Source: an uncultured Peptostreptococcaceae bacterium (GTDB lineage: Bacteria > Bacillota > Clostridia > Tissierellales > Peptoniphilaceae). Taken from it: DNA of 10,764 bases. The stretch lies in contig CAMDZK010000017.1 in assembly GCA_945910665.1 (NCBI GenBank), positions 1 to 10,764 on the forward strand, in the 5' to 3' direction. A program made the translations under genes and the position numbers. Shown here one piece after another: positions 187 to 10,764 of this stretch. Positions within the stretch are counted from its first letter, which is position 1. Each line of letters begins with the position of its first letter. Below the pieces are notes generated by a model. That model saw only the letters and a list, made by a program, of their open reading frames with translations. It was not told the DNA's origin and searched no databases.

Positions 187-798
187 TTAATTTTTTAACG
201 GTAATCGCCTGCTCCCTAAGACTAAAAAAATGAATAAATAAATCGCATGGATAAATAGACTTAAACCGATTCCATATTCTCTGCCAAATAAGCGTTGAAC
301 ATTGATAAATAAATCCATGCGCGCATATTCAAAGATTAGAAAAATGCTTAATGTTAAAAAGCTCGCCCAAATGCGATCTTTAAAAAGCGTTAATAGAAAA
401 AATGACAGGAACCCATAAAACAAACTCGAAAAAACGATTTTTAAAATCGACCATAGATTAAGTTGATGAAACAAATATAAAAAAAGAGTAGATACCGATA
501 AAATTAAAACTGTGTATGAAAATGCTAATACAGCGGTTTTTTTTACCCATATAGAACGCAGATTTTGATAAACGAAAAAAATTTCTCCACCTTGTGGTGT
601 AAAAGCTTCGCTTATGATTAATACAACCCAAAAAAAGCTAAATACTGGAAGTATATCTGTCAAAAAATAAATAAATTGCGTGGGGTCTTTGTGTGTGAAC
701 CATGTGTATAAACCATAACCCACCGCTCCAAAGACTAAGAAAAGAGGTGCAAGCACCCCTTTTCCAGCGCTTTTAATTGCAAATTGAAATTCATTCAT
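187..798 (-). CDS. ABC-2 type transporter permease subunit (203 residues)
   Basis: A highly hydrophobic protein with about six membrane-spanning segments and short loops. It is the last gene of the three-gene transporter operon and probably forms part of the membrane channel with the 636-residue permease and the ATPase. I chose the ATG at 798 (MNEFQF) over the in-frame TTG at 813. The ATG has a GGTGA sequence a few bases upstream and overlaps the stop codon (793-791) of the ATPase's displaced C-terminal frame in the compact form ATGAATGA, a layout typical of translational coupling. No nucleotide-binding motif is present. The substrate is unknown. No convincing terminator follows; the next gene's promoter starts within about 20 bases of the stop. 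Confidence 0.65.
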   Translation of the reverse strand: MNEFQFAIKSAGKGVLAPLFLVFGAVGYGLYTWFTHKDPTQFIYFLTDILPVFSFFWVVLIISEAFTPQGGEIFFVYQNLRSIWVKKTAVLAFSYTVLILSVSTLFLYLFHQLNLWSILKIVFSSLFYGFLSFFLLTLFKDRIWASFLTLSIFLIFEYARMDLFINVQRLFGREYGIGLSLFIHAIYLFIFLVLGSRRLPLKN

Positions 799-980
799 TT
801 TGTTCACCAACAATCGAAAAATAGAAGTCTTCTAAGTTTTCTTGTTCAATAATAGCCCCAGGGATATGCTGATGACATAATAAACGGTAACTGATGCCGC
901 CTTCGACTGGTTTCTTCTGTAAAACAATTGCATCGTCAGGAAATCCAGATTCTGCCCCTCGTGGGAGATTGCACACGTCC
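791..980 (-). pseudogene. Out-of-frame C-terminal tail of the ABC ATPase
   Basis: This frame continues the ATPase after a one-base shift near 970-985. It reads CNLPRGAESGF and ends NLEDFYFSIVGEQNE. An NLEDFYF-like stretch close to the end is typical of the C-terminus of ABC-2 transporter ATPases, so this is the original tail. Its TGA stop (793-791) overlaps the ATG of the next permease, which is how the intact operon would be expected to look. It has no ribosome binding site of its own and is unlikely to be a separate gene. Confidence 0.7.
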
Positions 981-1607
981 ATGGATGTCTTGAATTAATT
1001 CTCTTTGCTTTCCGTGTGCTTCAATTACCCCTTGGTTAATGACTGTTATTGTGTCTGCTGTGTATTCAATATCTTCTACAATATGTGTGGATAGTAAAAC
1101 CATGTGAGAATCCTTCAATGACGCCACCAAGTCACGGACATTTGCCCTTTGTTTTGGATCAAGTCCAACTGTTGGTTCGTCCAGCACTAATATTTTCGAT
1201 CCTCCTAATATCGCTTGGGCAATCCCTAAACGGCGTAACATCCCTCCCGATAATGCTTTAATTTTTTTGGAACGCTGCTGTTCTAGCGCTGTATATTCAA
1301 GCGCTTCGTCAATCGTTTGTTTTGAAACATCTTTGAGTGTTGCAACATATTCCATTGCTTCTTGCACTGTGAGGCGACCAAACATTTGAAAATCCTGTGG
1401 TAAATAACCTATGCGCGTGTTCTCTATTCTGATTGTGCCTTCATATGGTATAAGTCCGAGTATCGCACGCATGAGTGTTGTTTTGCCGGCACCATTCGGT
1501 CCAAGTAATCCATGAATGCCTTCTTTAAATTCTAAATTAATATCATGAAGAACTTGTTGTTTTCCATATGATTTATTAACATGATTAATTCTTAATAGTG
1601 TTTCCAT
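936..1607 (-). CDS. ABC-2 transporter ATP-binding protein, frameshifted near its C-terminus
   Basis: Cytoplasmic ATPase that powers the two flanking permeases. All core motifs are visible: Walker A GPNGAGKTT (residues 36-44), Q-loop Gln71, signature LSGGM (119-123), Walker B ILVLDEP (139-145) and the switch His175 in LLSTHIVED. The ATG at 1607 follows GGAG that overlaps the TAG stop of the upstream permease, so the two are tightly coupled. After HGRV (residue 212) the frame turns into an unrelated 11-residue tail and stops at 936, while the true tail continues in another frame to 791. An intact protein would be about 270 residues, normal for this family; as read it is 223. The catalytic core survives, so partial function is possible. 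A sequencing error would explain it equally well. Confidence 0.85.
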   Translation of the reverse strand: METLLRINHVNKSYGKQQVLHDINLEFKEGIHGLLGPNGAGKTTLMRAILGLIPYEGTIRIENTRIGYLPQDFQMFGRLTVQEAMEYVATLKDVSKQTIDEALEYTALEQQRSKKIKALSGGMLRRLGIAQAILGGSKILVLDEPTVGLDPKQRANVRDLVASLKDSHMVLLSTHIVEDIEYTADTITVINQGVIEAHGKQRELIQDIHGRVQSPTRGRIWIS

Positions 1608-1615
1608 GATATCTC

Positions 1616-3526
1616 CTAACGTAATTCATTAACATCGTCTTGTGTTATCAAACGCTGTGAAGATAAGAGTGTATACCATTCTCTAAAGAAAGTCTGAATA
1701 TCATCTTCACTTGCGGTGTCTAAAAATTGACTGATTTCGGAATCATTGATATTTCCTCGTCCAGTTTTCGCGTAAAATAATGCCTCCATGAAGTCTTCTT
1801 GTAACGCCGCATCTTGGCGCATGAAATTTGTATTCCCGCTGACAAAGGTAAATACGCGGTCCAAATACATTTCACTTTGCCATTGTTCATCTTCGATATA
1901 ATTCTCATAAGGAAGGGCATCCGATAAATAAGCAGTATCGCCATTCTTTTGCATTAACCCAGCATAATATCCGATTGTTTGTGAGCTTTCAGGAATAACA
2001 GCTACCGCTCGTATAGGCGTGTATTCTTCTCCTAAATAATCTGCAATTTCTTGGAGTTTTTGGTCTGTATCCTTTACAAAAGAAATACCCCCTTCTAAAT
2101 AACGCGTTTGAGCATATACCAAATCTAAATTATCTCTCACTTCTTGTGTTACAAAACCAGAAATCACACACAAACCGGTGTCTGAAATCCCCGATTCTTG
2201 CACGTTTGTCCATACTGGATTGTTTGTGTCTACTTGCACAGAATATGCGACAGGCTGTGATTCCTGTGGCAAAGCTAAGAATGGATTTCCTCTGAACAAG
2301 TTACCAGCATATGCGACTGGATACCAGTTAAAATATGAAGGCAAGTACATTGCTTTTGCATCAGCAAAATAGGGATATGGGGTCATTCCTGAATAACGCA
2401 TTTCAAGGTGAATAACTTCGCCCTCAATAAATTCTACGTCATTTAGAAAAATGTTATCACCTTCTTGGGTAAAAGAGACCTCGGTGCCATTGACGTGTAC
2501 TTCTTTCATTCGTAGTGCATGATACAGTGAAAATTTGGGGTCCTGTGTTGATTCAGTAACCTCAAAATCTCCCGTTAGATTGACTGAAAGGTCTTTTTTC
2601 GTCTTTAAATGCAACTCTAATGTTTTCCATTGTCCAAATGTTGTGCTAAAATCACTCTCGGTATCAGCATAGTAGGCATTTTCTGTTTCCATGCGCTGCA
2701 CTTCACCTAAGCCACTCATTTGAGCACTTGATGTATTCATTATTCCGACGAATGACAAAGCGAATAAGAAAGCTGTTCCAATAAAAATTGGAAAGGCAAG
2801 TTTTCTTTTTTCGAGCAATTGCCCGAAACACCAAATGAGTAGAAGACATACACCAATGAGGCTAACGCGCAGCATAAAAACGCGTAGCCCAGTTTCCATT
2901 CCGTAAAATGCATTGACAGATTTGGTGGCAAGAGGATAACCCAGTCGTAAGGGTTGAAATAAAAGTTCTTGTAATCCTTTAGGAAAGAACTGTCCAATAG
3001 TGCCTAACAAGTCAAATCCAAATGGGCCCATTAAAAAGAGTACAATGAGCGTCACAAAATAACCAAGTGGTCCTTTCGCAAAAATAGCGACTAAAATACC
3101 CACCAGAAAACTAATCATCATAGGAAATACATAATAATATAAAATGAAAAGAGGGACATCGCGATTAAACCATGGAAAAGCACCTGCAGGATTTTGGGAA
3201 ATTTTTGCAACAACAAAGATAATGATACCTAGAAAAACAAAAAGGAGCGTATGTGCTGCGAATCCGACTAAAGTTATTGTTCTCTCTTTTCGCTCCAAGC
3301 GCATCCAGTCGAATGCGGTTTTTTTATGCCACGTTACAAAATAGCGATAACCCAGTAAACCTGCCCACCAAAGCGCAATCTGCTGCCCAGGATATGCCTG
3401 CGGAAAATCTATAACACCATTATTAAGTTTAAGTCCAAAAAAAAGATATGGAATCAGAAAAATGAGTGCAACATAGCTTAAAGAATCGCGCAGCATCTTT
3501 TTGAGTTCTGTTTTAAGTAATGTCAT
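1616..3526 (-). CDS. ABC-2 type permease with a large extracytoplasmic domain (636 residues)
   Basis: The first half is membrane-embedded, with hydrophobic segments at roughly residues 17-34, 48-66, 86-108, 125-150, 153-178, 217-236 and 245-263. From about 265 to the end the chain is polar, rich in acidic and aromatic residues and without another membrane span, so it should form a domain of some 370 residues outside the cell. The start is firm: ATG 3526 follows AGGAGG, and that site overlaps the stop of the broken upstream gene. It precedes the ATPase with eight bases between them. The outer domain loosely recalls the M1-aminopeptidase-like domains fused to some ABC-2 permeases, but I see no HExxH zinc motif, so a binding or degenerate role is more likely. 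The substrate is unknown. Confidence 0.75.
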   Translation of the reverse strand: MTLLKTELKKMLRDSLSYVALIFLIPYLFFGLKLNNGVIDFPQAYPGQQIALWWAGLLGYRYFVTWHKKTAFDWMRLERKERTITLVGFAAHTLLFVFLGIIIFVVAKISQNPAGAFPWFNRDVPLFILYYYVFPMMISFLVGILVAIFAKGPLGYFVTLIVLFLMGPFGFDLLGTIGQFFPKGLQELLFQPLRLGYPLATKSVNAFYGMETGLRVFMLRVSLIGVCLLLIWCFGQLLEKRKLAFPIFIGTAFLFALSFVGIMNTSSAQMSGLGEVQRMETENAYYADTESDFSTTFGQWKTLELHLKTKKDLSVNLTGDFEVTESTQDPKFSLYHALRMKEVHVNGTEVSFTQEGDNIFLNDVEFIEGEVIHLEMRYSGMTPYPYFADAKAMYLPSYFNWYPVAYAGNLFRGNPFLALPQESQPVAYSVQVDTNNPVWTNVQESGISDTGLCVISGFVTQEVRDNLDLVYAQTRYLEGGISFVKDTDQKLQEIADYLGEEYTPIRAVAVIPESSQTIGYYAGLMQKNGDTAYLSDALPYENYIEDEQWQSEMYLDRVFTFVSGNTNFMRQDAALQEDFMEALFYAKTGRGNINDSEISQFLDTASEDDIQTFFREWYTLLSSQRLITQDDVNELR

Positions 3527-3535
3527 TTTATCCTC

Positions 3536-3928
3536 CTAAAATTCTCCATATGCATTAACATCTTTTGTTTTAGAACCATCTGGATCCAACTCTAAATACA
3601 TAGCCTTACCTTCGAATTCGCTTGTTACCGATCATCTACTTGTTCCATAATTTCCTGCTCTTACATAAATATCTTTAAATTCTGTATCTGCAAAAATTGC
3701 ATTATCTTTATAAAGTACCCCATATACCGCCCTAGCTGAATTTGAGTAATTAGTGACATCAATCTCTACATATCCTGATACGCCATTAATATTTTGAGTC
3801 TTTGCAGAAATTTGTGTTACATAAATATATACCTCTCTATGATCACCATTATATGCAAAAATCAACATTGCATTGGAGTCAAGTCCAAAATCTTGTGTAA
3901 AAGTTCCTAGTACAATGTTTGCTATTTT
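3536..3928 (-). pseudogene. C-terminal remnant of a resident gene cut by the cassette
   Basis: One minus-strand frame reads KIANIVLGTFTQDFGLDSNA, then a further 78 codons, an in-frame TGA (3634-3632), then 31 more protein-like codons (ending VNAYGEF) to TAG at 3538-3536. There is no start upstream: a TAG lies immediately before the Lys codon at 3928. The first 17 codons are inside the 53-base repeat whose second copy is at the right edge, where the rest of the gene presumably lies. The TAG stop overlaps the AGGAGG site of the 636-residue permease, so this was the upstream gene of that operon. The residues suggest a beta-rich soluble or secreted domain, but I do not recognise the family. The TGA replaces a sense codon, possibly Trp, and fits decay after disruption. 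Confidence 0.7.
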
Positions 3929-3929
3929 C
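3877..3929. repeat. 53-base direct repeat, left copy
   Basis: It is identical over 53 bases to 10712-10764, in the same orientation. The base before it differs from that before the other copy (G at 3876, A at 10711). On the minus strand it encodes the start of the remnant frame, KIANIVLGTFTQDFGLD. Its position marks the left boundary of the RiPP cassette. Confidence 0.9.
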
Positions 3930-4192
3930 TAAAGTTTTATGTAAGTTCTTGTAGCAAAGCCGAGAAAACCCTATGATTACTACACGATAAATATTATAAA
4001 ATTGCATATACAGCCGCTCTGAGACATTACTAAAAATTATATTGAAGATATTTAGCGGGGAAATCAAATACAAAATTTATCACTAAAGAATTATCGAATA
4101 TGAAGAGAAGCTTCAGCTAAAATAATCCAATAATGCTAAATTTAGAACATTGCTACAGCATTACAATCTACTATACTATTTTATTAGGTACA
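3930..4192. other. Non-coding AT-rich spacer at the left end of the cassette
   Basis: About 260 bases with no frame I can support. The longest minus-strand frame here (stop at 3879) has no ribosome binding site and shifts into the repeat out of the frame used by the remnant. There is no RNA gene or clear promoter that I can recognise. Confidence 0.5.
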
Positions 4193-4228
4193 TAGGAAAA
4201 AGCATACAAATAAGTATGCCCTTTCCTA
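4193..4228 (-). terminator. Strong hairpin ending the precursor operon
   Basis: The arms TAGGAAAAAGCATAC (4193-4207) and GTATGCCCTTTCCTA (4214-4228) pair along 15 positions with two mismatches and a six-base loop. It begins ten bases after the stop of the last small ORF (4238). There is no long T-run on the minus-strand side, so it may act as a 3' end stabiliser or processing hairpin rather than a classical intrinsic terminator. Confidence 0.5.
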
Positions 4229-4237
4229 TTTCATTCT

Positions 4238-4348
4238 CTATCCTTGCTGGAATTCGTCTCGATCTTCCTCTATATTTTCTTTATGATTGTCTTTCTCAAT
4301 AGGAAGCCATCGATAATTTTCGAATGCTACCCTTAGATTATTTGTCAT
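4238..4348 (-). CDS. Possible 36-residue protein overlapping the second precursor
   Basis: The frame starts at ATG 4348 inside the last codons of the 55-residue precursor (11-base overlap) and runs to TAG at 4240-4238. It begins MTNNLRVAFENYRWLPIEKD and continues very hydrophilic, with many Glu, Asp, Asn and Gln and no Cys. It has no clear ribosome binding site, so translation would depend on coupling to the precursor. The protein-like composition and its end just before the hairpin argue for a real gene; its small size and the lack of a Shine-Dalgarno sequence argue against. The function is unknown; an immunity or accessory peptide is only one possibility. Confidence 0.35.
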   Translation of the reverse strand: MTNNLRVAFENYRWLPIEKDNHKENIEEDRDEFQQG

Positions 4349-4505
4349 TGTTAGGATTGGAATTTGGCCCATAACCTGGTTTACCAGGGTCGCATAAATA
4401 AAATCTTTCAGGGCAATATGGTAGTCCTATTAAAGGTGGACATGGGTTTAATACTTGACAATTGTCCCATTGTGGGGAAATATCGCATTTGACTAATTTT
4501 TTCAT
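4338..4505 (-). CDS. Candidate Cys/Pro-rich RiPP precursor peptide 2 (55 residues)
   Basis: The start ATG 4505 follows GGAAGG (4518-4513) with seven bases between. The peptide begins MKKLVKCDISPQWDNC and has five Cys (7, 16, 22, 31, 38) and many Pro. From Cys22 on it matches precursor 1: CPP, eight residues from Cys22 to Cys31, then CP and six residues to Cys38, then DPGKPGYGP. Precursor 1 has the same spacing of six between the last two Cys and TPAKPGMSP in the same place. It ends with an Asn-rich tail (NSNPNNDK). It lies 18 bases after precursor 1 and downstream of a radical SAM/SPASM maturase and an exporter, so it is probably a second maturase substrate. The cleavage site and the modified residues cannot be read from the sequence. 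Confidence 0.7.
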   Translation of the reverse strand: MKKLVKCDISPQWDNCQVLNPCPPLIGLPYCPERFYLCDPGKPGYGPNSNPNNDK

Positions 4506-4523
4506 AAATACACCTTCCTAACG

Positions 4524-4703
4524 TTATTCTTTGTTTAAAAGTTTAATATGTTCAATTTTATTCGTACTGGTTGGACTCATGCCTGGCTTAGCTGGAGTGC
4601 AGAATAATGTTAACCCAGGGCATGGATATCCTGGAATATAGTGATTGGGTGGACACCATGGTTCTAATTCACTCGATGGTTTTTGCATAATCAATTTAAT
4701 CAT
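4524..4703 (-). CDS. Candidate Cys/Pro-rich RiPP precursor peptide 1 (59 residues)
   Basis: The ATG at 4703 has a near-perfect AAAGGAG six bases upstream. This decides the start over an in-frame TTG at 4745 that would add 14 residues. The short N-terminal part (MIKLIMQKPSSELEPW) could be the leader recognised by the maturase. Then follow Cys17, Cys28 and Cys35 in a Pro-rich core (CPP, YPCP, FC, TPAKPGMSP) and a charged tail ending KLLNKE. Precursor 2 shares the core pattern: CPP, 8-10 residues, CP, six residues, C, xPxKPGxxP. Small size, paired copies, Cys content and place next to a SPASM enzyme and ABC exporter together identify it as a RiPP precursor. It resembles the general class of Cys-rich clostridial peptides matured by SPASM enzymes, but I cannot assign a named family. 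Confidence 0.75.
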   Translation of the reverse strand: MIKLIMQKPSSELEPWCPPNHYIPGYPCPGLTLFCTPAKPGMSPTSTNKIEHIKLLNKE

Positions 4704-4746
4704 TGTATTCTCCTTTCTTTTATCGTAATAATTAGCGTTCCACAAC

Positions 4747-4799
4747 TATTGTTGAATTCACCTCCTTGTCTAACATTTATAGAAACAGACATTCACTCT
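4747..4799 (-). promoter_or_regulatory. Duplicated cis element, copy upstream of the precursor genes
   Basis: Read on the minus strand: AGAGTGAA (4799-4792), ten bases, TATAAA (4781-4776), eight bases, AAGGAGGT (4767-4760), four bases, TCAAC (4755-4751), one base, ATA. The same blocks in the same order, with gaps nine, seven and three, occur at 9235-9186. The TATAAA is a plausible -10 box, which would put the AAGGAGG at the extreme 5' end of the transcript. No usable start codon follows that Shine-Dalgarno at a normal distance; the precursor has its own at 4716-4710. It may be a promoter plus a ribosome-bound mRNA 5' stabiliser. Confidence 0.5.
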
Positions 4800-4823
4800 T
4801 TGATTGAATGAATATATGTCTGT
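4785..4823 (-). other. Hairpin between the second S41 gene and the precursors
   Basis: The arms ACAGACAT (4785-4792) and ATGTCTGT (4816-4823) can pair, with extra pairs possible inside. It starts 20 bases after the S41 stop. Only a short T-rich stretch (TTTCTAT) follows on the minus strand, so termination would be partial. It may separate the abundance of precursor transcripts from that of the upstream enzymes, as is common in bacteriocin operons. Confidence 0.4.
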
Positions 4824-4842
4824 CACTAAATCAAGATATTAC

Positions 4843-6156
4843 CTAGTCTAATTCTAATCCTTCTAACTCGAGCACTTTCTGAATAGTGCGGTCTCTTTCA
4901 ATATTAATCTCTCCATTTGAATCAAGAGGTTTAATGGGGCTCGCTTCATAGTGCGGTGTTGTTTGGTCTAATTCACTGATACTCCCCGATTCTGTCATTC
5001 CTAACTCAGATGTAAATTGAATTAAATACCCAGTGTTAGGTAAATCAAAAATCGTTAATCCGCTTGCCAGGCCATCTCCTCCTGTTGTTGTGCCTATGAG
5101 TGTCGCTATTCCAGATTCCTTGGCAAATGAGGCAAATGTTTCAGAAGAACTATATACACGTGAATTGACCAAAAGATAAATATTTCCGTTAAACCCTATT
5201 GAGTCTGCGTTTGGTTTAATATTATGTTCCCACCGTGTATAGTAATCAAAATCACTCACGATCTCTTCTGCTTGGGGATTCACATTTAATGATTTGATAA
5301 AATCTTCTGACAATTCTTGCATATTATGTTGCCGAATCATATGCTCAAATAGTGGTGCATCCTTCTGAAACAAATAAGCCGTTCTCGATGCTTCTTCATC
5401 AAGAATCATCGGTAAAATGAAATTCGCCCAATATGCTGAATCTCCGCCATAATTATCGCGGATATCAATCACTAGTGCAGGGTAGTCTTTGACTGACTGA
5501 AGATATGGAAGCAAGTATTCCTTTTCGGCCTGAACTCTCGTGCTCTTTGGATCATAGGGCAACATTGATGCGATTGAAAAGTATCCCACTTGACCTGGAA
5601 CCAAATCATAGGCTTTTAAGTTTGTTTGCTCGCCCATCTCTTCCAGATTCCGGGTAAGCGAAAGGTATTCATCAATTCTTTCATTGGTGATCGGATACCG
5701 CGCACGAACAGTTGGTTTTTCAAAAACCTCTGCTGCCTTTGAAGTCCAAGTGTATCGCGGCTGTGTCATGTAACTTGTATAAAACATTAATCCTTCTTCG
5801 GCAGGCATAAGTCTTACATGGTCATTATGTAACTCGTCCAATATCCCTTGCATAGTGGAAGTGAATTGTCCGTCTACTGTCACATTCGATAGTTGTTCAA
5901 GATATTTCTCTTTTTGTTCAAGCCAATCGACCCCAGTTTTTATTTCATTGACTTTAAAATACGGGTAATGTGCTTCTAAGATATCATAGGCATACTCAAA
6001 ATCTTCGATATACTGCTCTATCGTTAAGATTTCAGGTTCTGGGCGTTCACCAAATGTTGGAATTGCTCTAGGTGATTGTTGATATTTCTGATAGCTAGCA
6101 ACAGTAATTAGTAACAAAGCTAATCCGATTGTGATAATTGCAATTTTCTTTTTCAT
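4843..6156 (-). CDS. S41-family protease, membrane-anchored or secreted (437 residues)
   Basis: I place the start at ATG 6156 (MKKKIAI), six bases after AAAGGAG; an in-frame ATG at 6201 lies inside the exporter gene and has no such site. Residues 5-20 form a signal peptide or anchor with no lipobox Cys, unlike its paralogue. S41 features follow: His113 in LHNDH, a strand segment VGYFSI (190-195), DIRDNYGG (231-238), the presumed nucleophile in YSSSE (335-339) and GTTTGGDG (355-362). The Lys of CtpA-type Ser/Lys enzymes, usually in a TFGKG motif, is absent here, so a tricorn-like Ser/His arrangement is more likely. It is alike throughout to the S41 protein at 9234-10541. It starts 25 bases after the exporter stop. 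It probably acts outside the cell on the exported peptide, as leader remover or as self-protection. Confidence 0.85.
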   Translation of the reverse strand: MKKKIAIITIGLALLLITVASYQKYQQSPRAIPTFGERPEPEILTIEQYIEDFEYAYDILEAHYPYFKVNEIKTGVDWLEQKEKYLEQLSNVTVDGQFTSTMQGILDELHNDHVRLMPAEEGLMFYTSYMTQPRYTWTSKAAEVFEKPTVRARYPITNERIDEYLSLTRNLEEMGEQTNLKAYDLVPGQVGYFSIASMLPYDPKSTRVQAEKEYLLPYLQSVKDYPALVIDIRDNYGGDSAYWANFILPMILDEEASRTAYLFQKDAPLFEHMIRQHNMQELSEDFIKSLNVNPQAEEIVSDFDYYTRWEHNIKPNADSIGFNGNIYLLVNSRVYSSSETFASFAKESGIATLIGTTTGGDGLASGLTIFDLPNTGYLIQFTSELGMTESGSISELDQTTPHYEASPIKPLDSNGEINIERDRTIQKVLELEGLELD

Positions 6157-6181
6157 CATTTGCTCCTTTTGCATAACGTTT

Positions 6182-7780
6182 CTATAATTGTATTGTTTCA
6201 TCTGAAAAATTTATTAATCTAGAATCATGGGTTGCCAATATTATGATACGAGTATGTTTAATATCTTCCAAAATTTTTATTAACTTACTCGTAGTCTCTT
6301 CATCGAGAGCAGAAGTCGGTTCATCAAAAAGTAGTAATGAGGATGGCTTGGATAAACACTGCGCAAGTGCAATTCTCTGTTTTTGTCCTCCTGAAAGCTT
6401 TTCGAAAGTTTCATTATTCAAGGCATTCTTTTTAAACAAGGGTAAAATGGGTTGCATTTTGTCATCGAGACTTTCAAGAAGATTGCAAAAGTGTATGTTC
6501 TGTTGTAAATTTTTACATTCAAAAAACATAGGGGTTTGCTCTAATACAGATATTTTTTCTTTGCGAAGATTTATCATGTCTAACTTTGTTATAGCCAAAT
6601 CATTCATGCTTAATTTCCCACAATATTGTTTAAGATACATCCCGGCAATTATATTCAGTAATGTAGATTTACCTGAACCGTTGTTTCCTTTTACGGTATA
6701 AATTCGTCCTGGTTTAAAAGTATACGAAAAATCTTGGATAACAAACTCATTCTCTTTATACGCAAAACTTAAATTTTCGATATCAACAGAATCAATATTT
6801 TTAATTTTAATAACTCCATTATTTTCTTCTGCAATTCTAAAAATTTCCACAATTCTATCAAAAGAAACTCTTGTGTTTTCTATTGTTTGTCCTAAAGTAA
6901 AGAAAAACCGAATGCTATCAAGGGCATACGAAAAAAAAATAGATAAAATTGTAAATTGTCCAATAGTTAAAGAATTACTTAGCACTAATCGTCCTCCGAC
7001 AAAAAACGAACCGATAATCATAATAGTATAAATAGTATTATCTAATGAACTATAAACATAATTTATTTTTTGAGACCTCATCGTTATTCGAAGTAAATTC
7101 GTATAGGCTCTGGAAAACAATTTACCTATCGTGGCTTGTGCACTTTGTAACTTAATTGAGCGAACCCTAGTTATTTGTCGATGATATAGTGAAAAGAAAG
7201 AAGCCTGAACCTCTGTAAGTTCTCTATTTACTTCGTATACTTTTTTTCGCATCAGTATATATACTAAAATATATATCCTTATTAATACAATCATTAAAAT
7301 AATCATAACTGGATGAATAGAGGCTATAATTAGTAAAGTTGTAACAAATAACAATATGTTTGAAACGATATTGAATAGCCAACTTACGCTAAAACTCGAA
7401 ACTGTATTTGTGTCGATATTCATTCTTTGAGTCAGAGTTGTTAAGTCAGTTTTTTCAGATTCTTTTAAGGAGATAGATTGAAAATGTGAAATCAAATCTT
7501 TACTAATTTCAAATACAGTATTACTTTGAGAAATTGTATGATTTTTGTCTCTTAAATATGAAAGAAATATACCACTGATATTCATAACAAAAAATAATAT
7601 AGAATATTCCAATATATTCTTAAACGTAGTAGTTCTCGTCAATAAGTCTATGAAATTACCAATAAGGTATGGACTTAGTAATGAAATTATTAAATTTAAA
7701 CTTCCTGAAAAATAATACTTGTAAATGTATTGTCTTGAGGTTAACAAATAGGGTCTCATAAATCTCATTATATTAAGCAA
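6182..7780 (-). CDS. Half-size ABC exporter, type I fold, for the peptide (532 residues)
   Basis: Residues 1-305 form a six-span membrane domain of the exporter type, and 330-532 the nucleotide-binding domain: Walker A GNNGSGKST (365-373), Q-loop Gln415, signature LSGGQ (462-466), Walker B LLLFDE (482-487) and switch His518. It should work as a homodimer and pump the modified peptide out. There is no N-terminal C39 peptidase domain, so leader removal must come from elsewhere; the two S41 proteins are the obvious candidates. The TTG start (7780) is set by AAAAAGGAG seven bases upstream; the alternative ATG is four codons on (7768). It lies 35 bases after the maturase. Base composition is very AT-rich, for example 11 G+C in the 60 bases 7261-7320. 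Confidence 0.85.
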   Translation of the reverse strand: MLNIMRFMRPYLLTSRQYIYKYYFSGSLNLIISLLSPYLIGNFIDLLTRTTTFKNILEYSILFFVMNISGIFLSYLRDKNHTISQSNTVFEISKDLISHFQSISLKESEKTDLTTLTQRMNIDTNTVSSFSVSWLFNIVSNILLFVTTLLIIASIHPVMIILMIVLIRIYILVYILMRKKVYEVNRELTEVQASFFSLYHRQITRVRSIKLQSAQATIGKLFSRAYTNLLRITMRSQKINYVYSSLDNTIYTIMIIGSFFVGGRLVLSNSLTIGQFTILSIFFSYALDSIRFFFTLGQTIENTRVSFDRIVEIFRIAEENNGVIKIKNIDSVDIENLSFAYKENEFVIQDFSYTFKPGRIYTVKGNNGSGKSTLLNIIAGMYLKQYCGKLSMNDLAITKLDMINLRKEKISVLEQTPMFFECKNLQQNIHFCNLLESLDDKMQPILPLFKKNALNNETFEKLSGGQKQRIALAQCLSKPSSLLLFDEPTSALDEETTSKLIKILEDIKHTRIIILATHDSRLINFSDETIQL

Positions 7781-7815
7781 ATTATGACTCCTTTTTAACT
7801 AAGATTTAATTGATA

Positions 7816-9108
7816 TTATTCAATTTCAGATAATAAAAACTCTCCTATCGCTTTTAATTTATCTGTTAAATAATATTTTTCAGTGATACATTGGGGCTCT
7901 TTTTTAGATACACGTTCATTCGGACATCCCCCCATGCATATCGGTAAAATCTCACAATCTTTGCATTTATTGTCAGAGGTACTATCAAACATTAAATAGT
8001 CAAAAAATATTGAATTATGAGTATTCTGTTCAATTTGTTGAATATTACCGATAGATTTTTCTTTATCGCCTATGTCTACCCAACACTTATATAAATCACC
8101 ATTATAGTTGATGACAAATGAGCTGGTGTTGTCAGCTCCACAATACGTTGAACGGATTTCCGGGTATTCTTTCATCGCCATTTCTTTCGAATCGATTTTT
8201 ATGTTAGACTGTCTCATATTGGCAAATTCATTATCAGAAAAACATGCGTTATCATTATAAGCATTGTTAGTATTTTCAACTTTACCTGGATATACATTAA
8301 ATACATTCATGGTATCTATTTCTGATATTTGGTTCTTAACAAGCATCAAATCGTCTTCATTTTGTTTGTCTATATTTACTCTTATAGAAACACGTGGAAC
8401 TATTGTCGAAATATCTTTTAAATTTCTTAATATTACATCATATGTACCACGCCCATTATGTAACATACGTCTACTATCATGACTATTTTTTTCCCCATCA
8501 ATTGTTACTTGATAAGAAGACACTTTTAAATCGTTTAGTAAATATGCGGTCTCTTTTTTTAATAAATATCCATTAGTTACCATATGGGCAATATACTCTA
8601 TGTTATTATTTTTACATATATCTATAAAAGCATTCGACAGTTCTTTGATGACATCAACTTCTAACAAAGGTTCTCCACCATACCAACAAACGAGTAAAGT
8701 ATCAATATTTTTTGATTTACTTTCAACGAGCTTAATAATACTATCAATTGTATCAGAGTCCATTGTTGACTTTACTCGTTCATTTTGTTCATAACAGTAT
8801 ACACAATCAAAATTGCAATTTAATGTGGGTGCAATAGTTAATGCTAATTTTGAATTGCCATATCGATTTGCAAATAATTTATACCTTAATATCATATTTT
8901 CATCTGTATCTGCCGGAACGATAAATCCATCATGCTTTAATTCTTTCAAAAAGGAATAATTCTCAATCTCTTTTATATATAAATTTAGATTATTAAAGAC
9001 TTCATACTCTTCTTTTGACATGACATTCAACCCATTATTCATTGAATTATAAATTAACACTTGATCATCACTAATGGGAATTTCAAGATTAAATTTAGAT
9101 TTTTTCAA
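7816..9108 (-). CDS. Radical SAM/SPASM peptide maturase (430 residues)
   Basis: A cytoplasmic iron-sulfur enzyme that makes a 5'-deoxyadenosyl radical to modify a precursor peptide. Cys98, Cys102 and Cys105 (CNFDCVYC) bind the radical SAM cluster, and GGEP (144-147) contacts S-adenosylmethionine. The SPASM domain is complete: Cys323, 13 residues, Gly337, four residues, Cys342, then Cys382-x2-Cys385-x5-Cys391-x3-Cys395 and Cys407, enough for two auxiliary clusters. The first 80 residues precede the barrel and may hold the peptide-recognition region usual in such enzymes. The start is TTG 9108, set by AAGGAGG with six bases between. With Cys-rich substrates next door, thioether formation (sactipeptide or ranthipeptide type) is the likeliest chemistry, but the bond type cannot be told from sequence. 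It is strikingly AT-rich compared with the S41 genes on either side. Confidence 0.9.
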   Translation of the reverse strand: MKKSKFNLEIPISDDQVLIYNSMNNGLNVMSKEEYEVFNNLNLYIKEIENYSFLKELKHDGFIVPADTDENMILRYKLFANRYGNSKLALTIAPTLNCNFDCVYCYEQNERVKSTMDSDTIDSIIKLVESKSKNIDTLLVCWYGGEPLLEVDVIKELSNAFIDICKNNNIEYIAHMVTNGYLLKKETAYLLNDLKVSSYQVTIDGEKNSHDSRRMLHNGRGTYDVILRNLKDISTIVPRVSIRVNIDKQNEDDLMLVKNQISEIDTMNVFNVYPGKVENTNNAYNDNACFSDNEFANMRQSNIKIDSKEMAMKEYPEIRSTYCGADNTSSFVINYNGDLYKCWVDIGDKEKSIGNIQQIEQNTHNSIFFDYLMFDSTSDNKCKDCEILPICMGGCPNERVSKKEPQCITEKYYLTDKLKAIGEFLLSEIE

Positions 9109-9185
9109 TTTTTACCTCCTTAATTTTGTGTAGAAATGATTACAATTTCAACATTTGTTTTCATGCAGTTTCTATAATCTTAAAA

Positions 9186-9235
9186 TATAGTTGACCTACC
9201 TCCTTAGGATGCTTTATAATTTGTACCTTCACTCT
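9186..9235 (-). promoter_or_regulatory. Duplicated cis element, copy upstream of the maturase gene
   Basis: On the minus strand AGAGTGAA (9235-9228) overlaps the stop codon of the first S41 gene, followed by TATAAA (9218-9213), AAGGAGGT (9205-9198), TCAAC (9194-9190) and ATA (9188-9186). The blocks, order and near-identical spacing match 4799-4747. The AAGGAGGT here is about 90 bases from the maturase TTG and has no start codon at a usable distance. The element may be a second promoter for the maturase and exporter genes, or a relic of a lost precursor gene. Confidence 0.5.
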
Positions 9236-10541
9236 ACTCTTCCAACAATTTTTCAAGCCGTAACACTTGTTGTACCGCACGATCTCTTTCTAAAATTAAT
9301 TTGCCATCTGTGCCCATCATACGCAGTGGATTTACCTCATAATTAGGTTGTGTTTTATCCATTTCGCTGATAATCCCTTGTTCTGTAACGCCGATGATGG
9401 GTGTCATAGATACAAGATAACCTGTGTTTGGAAGATCGAAGAAAATCATCCCAAATCCGACGCCACCTCCACCCGTTTTACTTCCTATGACAGTCGCAAT
9501 GTCTTTTTCTTTTGCGAAAATAGCGAATGTATCGGCGGAACTATACGTTTTTGAGTCAACAAGCAAATACAAGTTTCCTTTATAATTAATCGAGTCTTCT
9601 CTAGGGGATATGGAAAGTGTCAGCGTCGTGTACATATCTGTGTTTGCAATAACATCTATCGTTTCTTGAGGAAAGGCAAATGTGTCTAGGTCATTTTCTG
9701 TCAGTGGATGAAAATGGTCGACCAATGGTGCAAATTTTTCTCCAGTGCGCATAAAGTAATAGTGGTCCGTTGAAATATCGTTCTCAATTAGTAGTGCGAG
9801 TATAAACTTTGTCCAGTACTCAGGCATTCCTCCACTATTGCCTCGCACATCTAAAATTAAAGCAGGATAATCTTTGACTTGATTCAAGTACTCTTTCACC
9901 TGCTGTTCTTCTTGACGAAAACGCTCGCTATCATCGACTGTGAGCATGTCTTGCACAGAAATGTATCCGACTTTTCCGTCGATAATGTCATAGGTTCTTA
10001 TGTTTCGTATAGTGTCATCAGATGTTGGGTTTAACTGTTCGACGTAGTGGTCAATGGATTCGTTCGTTAAATCATATCTCGCACGGACATTGTCTTGTTC
10101 AAATACTTTTCTTTGAGTGAAGTACCATGAATTTCTCGGCTGTGTGTAAAGCATGGAGTAAAAATATTGTGCATACCCTCCTTCAATCAAAAGATTCGTA
10201 TGTCCGTTATTTAATTCGCCTAATATAGACATGATCGCTTCTCGAAATTCCCGATCGGAATTAACTTCTGAAATCATCGTTTGAAAGTCATTTTTCTTGG
10301 AGCGCCAGTCTTTTCCACGCTCTCTTTTGCTAATTTCAAATAATGGATAATGACGATCTAAAATATCATACATGTACAAAAAATCATCCATATATTCTTG
10401 TTTCAAAACTTCCTTGAGCGTTGGGCGGGGACCCAAATCTGGAATCTCAGCAACTGCCGGCAAATACCGATTGCGTGCGCAACCAATTATGACGATAGAT
10501 GAAAGTAAGACAACTAAAATCAATTCTATTTTTTTATTCAA
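9234..10541 (-). CDS. S41-family protease, predicted lipoprotein (435 residues)
   Basis: First gene of the cassette. The TTG start (10541) follows AAGGAG with eight bases between. The N-terminus NKKIELILVVLLSSIVIIGC is a lipoprotein signal with the lipobox Cys at 21, so the mature protein should sit on the outer face of the membrane. S41 features: His114 in NNGHTNL, VGYISV (191-196), DVRGNSGG (231-238), YSSADTFA (333-340) with the presumed nucleophilic Ser, and GSKTGGGG (353-360) in place of the Lys-bearing motif of CtpA enzymes. It aligns along its length with the S41 protein at 4843-6156, including the shared RARY, NTGYL and C-terminal ERDR segments. One may process the leader while the other degrades or sequesters the product; this is inference. 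G+C is higher than in the maturase (29 of 60 at 9421-9480). Confidence 0.85.
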   Translation of the reverse strand: MNKKIELILVVLLSSIVIIGCARNRYLPAVAEIPDLGPRPTLKEVLKQEYMDDFLYMYDILDRHYPLFEISKRERGKDWRSKKNDFQTMISEVNSDREFREAIMSILGELNNGHTNLLIEGGYAQYFYSMLYTQPRNSWYFTQRKVFEQDNVRARYDLTNESIDHYVEQLNPTSDDTIRNIRTYDIIDGKVGYISVQDMLTVDDSERFRQEEQQVKEYLNQVKDYPALILDVRGNSGGMPEYWTKFILALLIENDISTDHYYFMRTGEKFAPLVDHFHPLTENDLDTFAFPQETIDVIANTDMYTTLTLSISPREDSINYKGNLYLLVDSKTYSSADTFAIFAKEKDIATVIGSKTGGGGVGFGMIFFDLPNTGYLVSMTPIIGVTEQGIISEMDKTQPNYEVNPLRMMGTDGKLILERDRAVQQVLRLEKLLEE

Positions 10542-10553
10542 AATTTGTACTCC

Positions 10554-10565
10554 TTATACGTATAA
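10554..10565. promoter_or_regulatory. 12-base palindrome next to the first S41 ribosome binding site
   Basis: TTATACGTATAA is perfectly self-complementary and touches the AAGGAG that serves the TTG start at 10541. It could be a small operator or simply AT-rich chance. Confidence 0.2.
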
Positions 10566-10606
10566 TCACCTTATGAAATAGTATTCTTTTATTCATGAAC
10601 TGAATC

Positions 10607-10634
10607 ATTATATAAATAAAAGTCAAAATTGAGT
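10607..10634 (-). promoter_or_regulatory. Weak candidate promoter for the cassette
   Basis: A perfect -10 box TATAAT (10612-10607) lies about 65 bases before the first S41 start. The best -35 at 16 bases is ACTCAA (10634-10629), a poor match; a TTGACT at 10626-10621 is too close (8 bases). The arms CTTTTAT (10586-10592) and ATAAAAG (10616-10622) flank the -10 region. Read-through from the interrupted resident gene is an alternative source of transcription. Confidence 0.3.
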
Positions 10635-10764
10635 TCGTATTCTTTTAGAAATTGATAACTTAATCCTGATTAGAATAAAGAAGATAATTTTACACTTATA
10701 ATATTCTATTAAGTCAAGTCCAAAATCTTGTGTAAAAGTTCCTAGTACAATGTTTGCTATTTTC
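10623..10764 (-). pseudogene. Upstream part of the interrupted resident gene, entering from the right edge
   Basis: The frame entering at the window edge reads KIANIVLGTFTQDFGLD, identical to the start of the remnant at 3928. It then leaves the homology at 10712 and runs through 29 unrelated AT-rich codons (LIEYYKCKIIF onward) to TGA at 10625-10623. The first part is inside the 53-base repeat. The simplest reading is that the resident gene's N-terminal half lies beyond the window and now ends in cassette DNA. Confidence 0.5.
10712..10764. repeat. 53-base direct repeat, right copy
   Basis: Identical to 3877-3929 up to the last base of the window. The true right limit is therefore unknown; the left copy continues with T at 3930. 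Confidence 0.9.

Follow-up and report, generated by a model that had tools for sequence, protein, structure and literature searches.

The closest described system to the gene set examined here, a putative cassette for ribosomally synthesized and post-translationally modified peptides (RiPPs) that includes two peptidases of family S41, is Clo7bot (ctpM/TIGR04334), represented on the Paraclostridium bifermentans plasmid NZ_CP094934.1 by several short Cys-rich peptides (MKFI...) encoded next to the maturase and by an ATP-binding cassette (ABC) transporter. The locus lies in a window of 10,764 nucleotides, which is a whole contig (CAMDZK010000017.1) of the draft genome of an uncultured Peptostreptococcaceae bacterium (GCA_945910665.1, hereinafter the source genome; 1.26 Mb in 219 contigs, 76.5% complete). 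Clo7bot is the best-scoring model for the radical S-adenosylmethionine (SAM) maturase of the locus, but the score is 297.4 bits against a cut-off of 600 and the identity is 35.5%; furthermore, the two source peptides, pep1 and pep2, are CP-rich with a CxPxKPGxxP end, and the source has two S41 genes, whereas none is annotated in the 15-kb stretch of NZ_CP094934.1, where annotation is incomplete. The ranthipeptide maturases are likewise SPASM enzymes, and 5WGG, which we take to be CteB, is the nearest PDB sequence to the source maturase (1.5e-13), but the model for PapB-type maturases (NF047865) yields 153 of 340 bits, and neither pep1 nor pep2 has the Cys-x3-Asp/Glu spacing that is the rule for PapB.

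Among the S41 proteins, the CPAF type (CT_858, PDB 3DOR) gives a significant profile match (2.1e-7), and the Ser-to-Glu spacing of 59 in CPAF recurs in the source (S334, E393), but the source proteins, S41a and S41b, reach 27.6 and 26.1 of the 250 bits of the cut-off, and they are predicted to be anchored and are encoded in a putative RiPP cassette. The nisin resistance protein, NSR, is, according to the accessible part of its description, a membrane-associated S41/CTP protein that cuts nisin, a cross-linked RiPP, outside the cell, and has the serine motif TASSAEM (PMC4698656). S41a and S41b resemble NSR in family, in predicted membrane association and in the place of the serine motif, but the motif itself reads TYSSADT and VYSSSET, NSR is not named among the PDB sequence matches, and both are encoded within a biosynthetic cassette. 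The NSR operon, in the accessible parts of two papers, includes a BceAB transporter and a two-component system (PMC4698656, PMC9958725); neither was found in 10541-4338 of the window; a further ABC set lies past an insertion sequence (IS) remnant.

A probable RiPP cassette with paired S41 genes

The minus strand of the window, from 10541 to 4338, encodes, in this order, S41a, the maturase, the ABC exporter, S41b, pep1 and pep2, followed by a hairpin at 4229-4192. We put at roughly 0.8 the probability that this gene set is a RiPP cassette, of a type that is known in broad terms, which makes, cross-links and exports two Cys/Pro-rich peptides. The S41 pair is uncommon and the precursors are new in sequence. 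A description of such an S41-bearing radical SAM cassette was not seen in searches of the open-access literature (subscription papers were outside the scope), nor was the name Clo7bot found there, and the whole word S41 is absent from the accessible part of PMC13289728. A sequence-only reading of the window had listed a complete seven-Cys SPASM enzyme, an exporter lacking a protease domain, two paralogous S41 proteases and two small Cys/Pro-rich peptides, and all these parts are borne out by domain models and motifs.

The maturase (430 amino acids; 7816..9108, minus strand) is a radical SAM/SPASM peptide maturase by its Cys motifs and by the PF04055 and TIGR04085 models. Its CX3CX2C triad lies at residue 98 (CNFDCVYC), and all seven cysteines of the SPASM domain are present (C323 x13 G x4 C342; C382 x2 C x5 C x3 C; C407). 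It exceeds the cut-offs of PF04055 (63.1 bits against 29.5) and TIGR04085 (62.8 against 27), with PF13186 narrowly below (20.3 of 21.5). Altogether, 64 NCBIfam models match it, with Clo7bot on top, followed by TIGR04463 (281 of 525 bits) and CefB (229 of 600); among the 25 of these matches that were shown, the general SPASM domain alone is above its cut-off. The maturases of sulfatases (TIGR03942, 93.0 of 349.45 bits) and quinohemoproteins (TIGR03906, 93.1 of 453) score far below Clo7bot, and related maturases have peptide partners, so that the suggestion of a self-contained peptide cassette is supported. Applied to six related maturases, TIGR04334 gives 264-298 bits for four close ones, 145.5 for that of locus L089 and 465.7 for the double-domain protein P0002. 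The latter has 688 amino acids with two tandem radical SAM stretches, of which the first seems to have no SPASM portion, and, judging by the two matched stretches, is a fused or misjoined maturase pair.

The maturase retrieved 2677 proteins at E up to 1e-3, with identities of about 36-44% among the 120 listed, the source's own excepted, and its protein cluster stands for 24 contigs. A scan of a genome collection added a pair of distant loci, with identities of 28% and 31%, and no match was confirmed when viral sequences were scanned with S41a and with the maturase. In a tree of 38 maturases with surroundings (L148, L005 and L048 were left out of 41, the phylum-level loci L190-L197 are absent, and eight rows have long branches), the source falls in a clade of eight rows (95/91, starred) with L039-L044, which come from the same bacterial family, and L107, the seventh other member. 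In L192 (genome G922), three related maturases lie inside 8 kb, with a very short Cys-containing open reading frame (ORF) ahead of each.

The exporter (532 amino acids; 6182..7780, minus strand) consists of ABC_membrane and ABC_tran domains, and no C39 peptidase is present among its 10 Pfam rows, which places it outside the C39-bearing PCAT transporters. Of the 16 best-scoring relatives with surroundings, 13 have an exporter that scores 200 bits or more with the source exporter and is encoded no further than 7 kb from the maturase; such an exporter adjoins the maturase in all of L039-L044 except L039, where the contig ends first.

Two Cys/Pro-rich putative precursors

The putative precursors pep1 (59 amino acids, 3 Cys; 4524..4703, minus strand) and pep2 (55 amino acids, 5 Cys; 4338..4505, minus strand) are defined by their ORFs, a shared motif and good Shine-Dalgarno sequences (AAAGGAG and GGAAGGTG), and their genes are 18 bp apart; the pep1 start is most likely ATG 4703, not TTG 4745. 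The core reads CPP-x8 (pep1) or x6 (pep2)-CP-x5-C-xPxKPGxxP, so that the elements given in the sequence-only reading stand but its spacers of 8-10 and six residues do not; beyond the motif, the tail of pep1 is longer than that of pep2. The local alignment of the two peptides scores 71, compared to a mean of 30.9 (standard deviation 6.3, maximum 62) in 5000 shuffles.

One or two Cys-rich peptides adjoin the maturase in each of L039-L044 (one L044 peptide was read from a partial start; L015, a seventh locus of the same family with a similar score, is on a 3.4-kb contig outside the peptide scan). Common to these peptides is a CxPxxxG(Y)xP end, for example, CDPNMMGYYP, CKPSATGYSP, CKPRRVGYFP, CDPGQTGYLP and CRPGLMGYFP, to which pep2 (CDPGKPGYGP) corresponds closely and pep1 (CTPAKPGMSP) loosely. 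A matrix of the C-terminal motif, built from nine peptides of the relatives, gave pep2 a score reached by none of 100,000 of its own shuffles and pep1 a score reached by 545 of 100,000; in a ranking of the 84 six-frame ORFs with 30 or more amino acids, pep2 comes first and pep1 only fourth. The nine rows were picked by eye from ten peptides of L039-L044, with one L040 peptide that has no motif dropped, and the matrix therefore gauges likeness rather than an unbiased family. The likeness is clear for pep2, whereas that of pep1, judged on sequence, is weak alone but is tied to pep2 through the paralogue test. The L133 and L134 precursors match this end in part only (CSPVKIQPAS), and in G922 a CP-rich peptide, MKFIVKPKPVNKDYEPWCPTFCPCRWPNRMV (containing EPWCPTFCPC), precedes one of the three related maturases.

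Because maturases of relatives adjoin Cys-rich peptides, with the CxPxxxG(Y)xP end shared by six loci, pep1 and pep2 are very probably precursors. No NCBIfam precursor family, including that of the Clo7bot Cys-rich peptides, matches either, and none matches eight precursors of relatives. The earlier view that they could not be placed is partly wrong: the MxxL(I/V)-like start and the end found in L039-L044 recur beside related maturases, as does, in G922, a CP-rich peptide. Only one half of the refuting test named in the sequence-only reading is passed, in that relatives retain the position, the ends and the accompanying genes, while the single search found no homolog of the peptides outside the species.

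Several other small ORFs were noticed around such cassettes. A possible charged peptide of 36 amino acids (MTNNLRVAFENYRW...; 4238-4348, minus strand) begins just ahead of the pep2 stop and is perhaps translationally coupled. In L046, a single maturase is followed by five Cys-rich peptides that alternate with five proteins of about 461 amino acids, the last cut by the end of the stretch. Regulator-like proteins of about 300 amino acids, resembling the RRNPP kind, are encoded near the L133, L089 and L190 cassettes, and short ORFs resembling secreted peptides are found near these and that of L134 (for example, MFKKFLFIMTIIMALFIISPIKQNDMFISAEDDAIEWNNYKTENISL in L133), which suggests control by peptide signaling.

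S41 proteins in radical SAM cassettes

S41a (435 amino acids; 9234..10541, minus strand) and S41b (4843..6159, minus strand) are 39% identical and are assigned to peptidase family S41 by PF03572 (77.7 and 74.7 bits, cut-off 24) and by the catalytic His, Ser and Glu (His114, Ser334 and Glu393 in S41a). Both keep the Ser within YSSAD or YSSSE and the GG pair. S41a is a predicted lipoprotein with the lipobox IIGC (Cys at residue 21), and S41b has a hydrophobic N-terminus. The start of S41b is most likely ATG 6159, with AAAGGAG upstream, not 6201, and thus lies 22 bp past the exporter gene. No other S41 match was found in the source genome at its 76.5% completeness.

Besides the source, an S41 gene is contiguous with the cassette in four of 48 maturase neighborhoods (L106, L133, L134 and L089); given that L089 and L148 were fetched via S41 hits, the fairer count is 3/46, and several loci are cut by contig ends. 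Additionally, an S41 gene lies 5.3 kb off in L147, and a weak one is on the opposite strand in L005. L106, L133 and L134, whose maturases score first, second and fourth of those from loci with surroundings, share the order rSAM (the maturase)-precursor-S41-ABC, and the order in L089 (genome G231) is precursor-rSAM-ABC-S41-CPBP/hydrolase protein-S41. The numbers of S41 and precursor genes are equal in the source (2/2) and in L106, L133 and L134 (1/1 each) but not in L089 (2/1). In the L106 and L133 proteins, His, Ser and GG are kept, and Glu is not at the respective column. Both L089 proteins have replaced His (by Y and D), Ser (by F and V) and GG (by MG and GD). Homologs of the S41 proteins (E up to 1e-15) are present in 89 of the 249 genomes of the order; among 20 fetched stretches with S41 hits, a related maturase is present in L089 only. 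G083 and G077, the genomes of L040 and L043, have zero S41 matches at E 1e-15, and in G027, G030, G034 and G065 the S41 match and the maturase are on different contigs.

In the tree of 32 S41 rows, the cassette label needs three changes, a number as low as that in none of 500 shuffles, and the starred branches force 3. S41a and S41b are sisters (94/85, slightly short of a star), and the 18-row clade that encloses them (100/100) has 16 other members: 13 stand-alone S41 proteins from the same family and three database entries, of which one is named Epulonipiscium. The L089 pair are also sisters (100/100), elsewhere in the tree, and the long-branched L106 protein joins those of L133 and L134 weakly (70/56). 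An arrangement of all cassette S41 proteins in one clade was rejected, being seen in 0% of 200 bootstrap trees. On the simplest reading of the tree, S41 proteins would have been recruited to such cassettes in three lineages and pairs would have arisen twice, although an older S41-cassette association with losses, or one gain with losses, may also account for the pattern. The pairing of S41 genes in the source is genuine, and one further pair was observed, that of G231, which the tree assigns to a separate duplication.

Possible roles of the S41 proteins

We infer the cross-link chemistry, the topology, the S41 role and the activity of the cassette, as follows. The two peptides would be synthesized in the cytoplasm, where the SPASM maturase would recognize their N-termini and cross-link Cys to other residues, probably through thioethers of the ranthipeptide kind, a guess from the relatives of the maturase. 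The ABC exporter would then carry the modified peptides out, and S41a, the predicted lipoprotein, and S41b, with an N-terminus resembling a membrane anchor, would encounter them outside the membrane. We take self-protection of the NSR type, at somewhat less than even odds, as the most likely job of the S41 proteins. We slightly favor this over processing of the exported peptide because comparable maturases and exporters occur with no S41 gene in the cassette and because the catalytic His and Ser are missing from both L089 proteins, a loss that suits binding more than processing; in the accessible part of the NSR study, His and Ser mutants retain 14% activity, ascribed to binding (PMC4698656).

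The competing proposal, that the S41 proteins are maturation proteases, one per precursor, that remove a leader or a C-terminal tail after export, is a serious contender, if a somewhat less probable one: the exporter has no C39 domain, precursor and S41 numbers match in the source, L106, L133 and L134, the source catalytic residues are intact, and the pep1 tail is the longer one. Yet, the cassettes of close relatives that have an exporter of this kind include no S41 gene, catalytic residues are missing in the L089 pair, and the whole word S41 is absent from the accessible main text of a 2023 review of RiPP leader proteases (PMC10885120). We are more doubtful about a broader proposal, namely, that S41-fold proteins are recurrent, convergently recruited cassette accessories that act as surface receptors or neutralizers of the cross-linked peptide, a built-in, NSR-like immunity with cutting in some lineages and binding alone in the dead pair of G231. 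It is improbable that S41a and S41b are mere neighbors, ordinary S41 proteins placed here by rearrangement near an IS element. Such an origin could be imagined given how common S41 homologs are in the order, the lack of a related maturase in 19 of the 20 S41-hit stretches and the IS ends that bound the interval, but the two genes flank the maturase and exporter, with S41b 22 bp past the latter, no other S41 match is known in the incomplete source genome and none in its congener G063, and S41 lies between precursor and exporter in L106, L133 and L134. Still less probable is that pep1 and pep2 are metal- or heme-binding proteins and the maturase has another substrate. CP motifs bind heme in other proteins and are present here, pep1 has three Cys only and a motif match that is weak alone, and no homologs were found elsewhere; against this, the position and ends of the peptides are as in those beside related maturases, and the pair comes with a dedicated exporter and a strong 3' hairpin.

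Several observations weigh against a RiPP cassette with self-protecting S41 proteins. The intact catalytic residues of S41a and S41b fit processing equally well, and the matching S41 and precursor numbers would suit dedicated processing too. Stand-alone S41 proteins show catalytic loss as well as those of cassettes: three of 14 stand-alone rows lack the His (L088, L090, L091x1), and that of L090 also has Gly for Ser, which weakens, without removing, the case for binding by the dead pair. Substitution of S41 for an immunity ABC transporter was rejected, as S41 proteins and the stand-alone ABC ATPases that could serve immunity show no complementary pattern; the 40 PDB sequences that match up to E 10 include none named nisin resistance protein; and the S41 label is unclustered on the maturase tree (4 changes, as low in 101 of 500 shuffles). 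As for the precursors, the CxPxxxGYxP end is not seen in those of L106, L135, L136 and L107 and so marks part of the relatives. A search of pep1 and pep2 against 5.8 billion proteins gave two entries only, both near-identical, and no homolog outside the species: P0133 is pep1 read from its sixth residue, a Met, and P0132 differs from pep2 by one residue (the pep1 cluster stands for 12 contigs). A protein search with S41a returned 11 matches though many distant homologs exist, and the precursor search, which gave just two candidates, may under-report distant kin in the same way.

Boundaries of the locus and neighboring genes

The hairpin 3' of the peptide genes (4192..4229, minus strand) is terminator-like, with a z-score of -4.28 and none of 200 shuffles equally stable. 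The hairpin between S41b and pep1 has no significant stability (z -1.24), and a sigma-70 promoter scan performed at shuffle level (37 observed, 36.1 expected) and was not used.

The 80 bp at 3877..3956 (minus strand), a remnant that derives from an IS256-family element and represents its 3' end, are identical in 80/80 nucleotides to copies in L118, L119, L120, L150, L151 and L152, and 53 bp of the same 3' end (10712..10764, minus strand) form the contig terminus. The 387-amino-acid transposase of this element is intact in L149, L150 and L151 (PF00872, 470.8 bits on the L149 copy). The interval 3930..10711 is the stretch between the two ends, which have the same orientation and are the only occurrences of a 29-base IS pattern (up to 2 mismatches) in the source genome. 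The 53-bp repeat was also considered as an att site or a tandem duplication, both rejected once its identity as an IS256 3' end was recognized. The contig apparently breaks where a repeat would halt an assembler. No near copy of the element was found in the plasmids scanned. In the congener G063 (97% complete), the sole one covered by the family search, the maturase match is weak (2.8e-13) and S41 gives no match at E 1e-15, a pattern that fits horizontal gain.

The junction of the cassette with the left part of the contig runs across the 80-bp remnant, and because of this, and because the contig stops at the repeat, the ABC genes at 187-3526 (minus strand) are not counted in the cassette, to which they may be unrelated. 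They encode an ABC ATPase and two membrane-like proteins without a family match. The best model for the ATPase is that of lantibiotic-protection ATPases, below its cut-off (151.5 of 309.75 bits), and by eye its frame seems to stop early and continue in another (ORF 791-982). An open frame at 3632-3876 (minus strand) leaves the IS remnant and runs up to a TGA, with the same frame open further to 3536; contig C30 of the source genome holds a partial relative (36% over 53 amino acids).

Implications

Cys-rich peptides modified by radical SAM enzymes are common in Clostridia, and, to our knowledge, little has been established about their processing or about tolerance to them. A cassette type that appears to have acquired one fold several times, in some cases as a pair and in one case in a catalytically dead form, would offer a direct handle on this processing or tolerance, and the combination of a SPASM maturase, an S41 protein and a C39-less exporter provides a search key for further cassettes.

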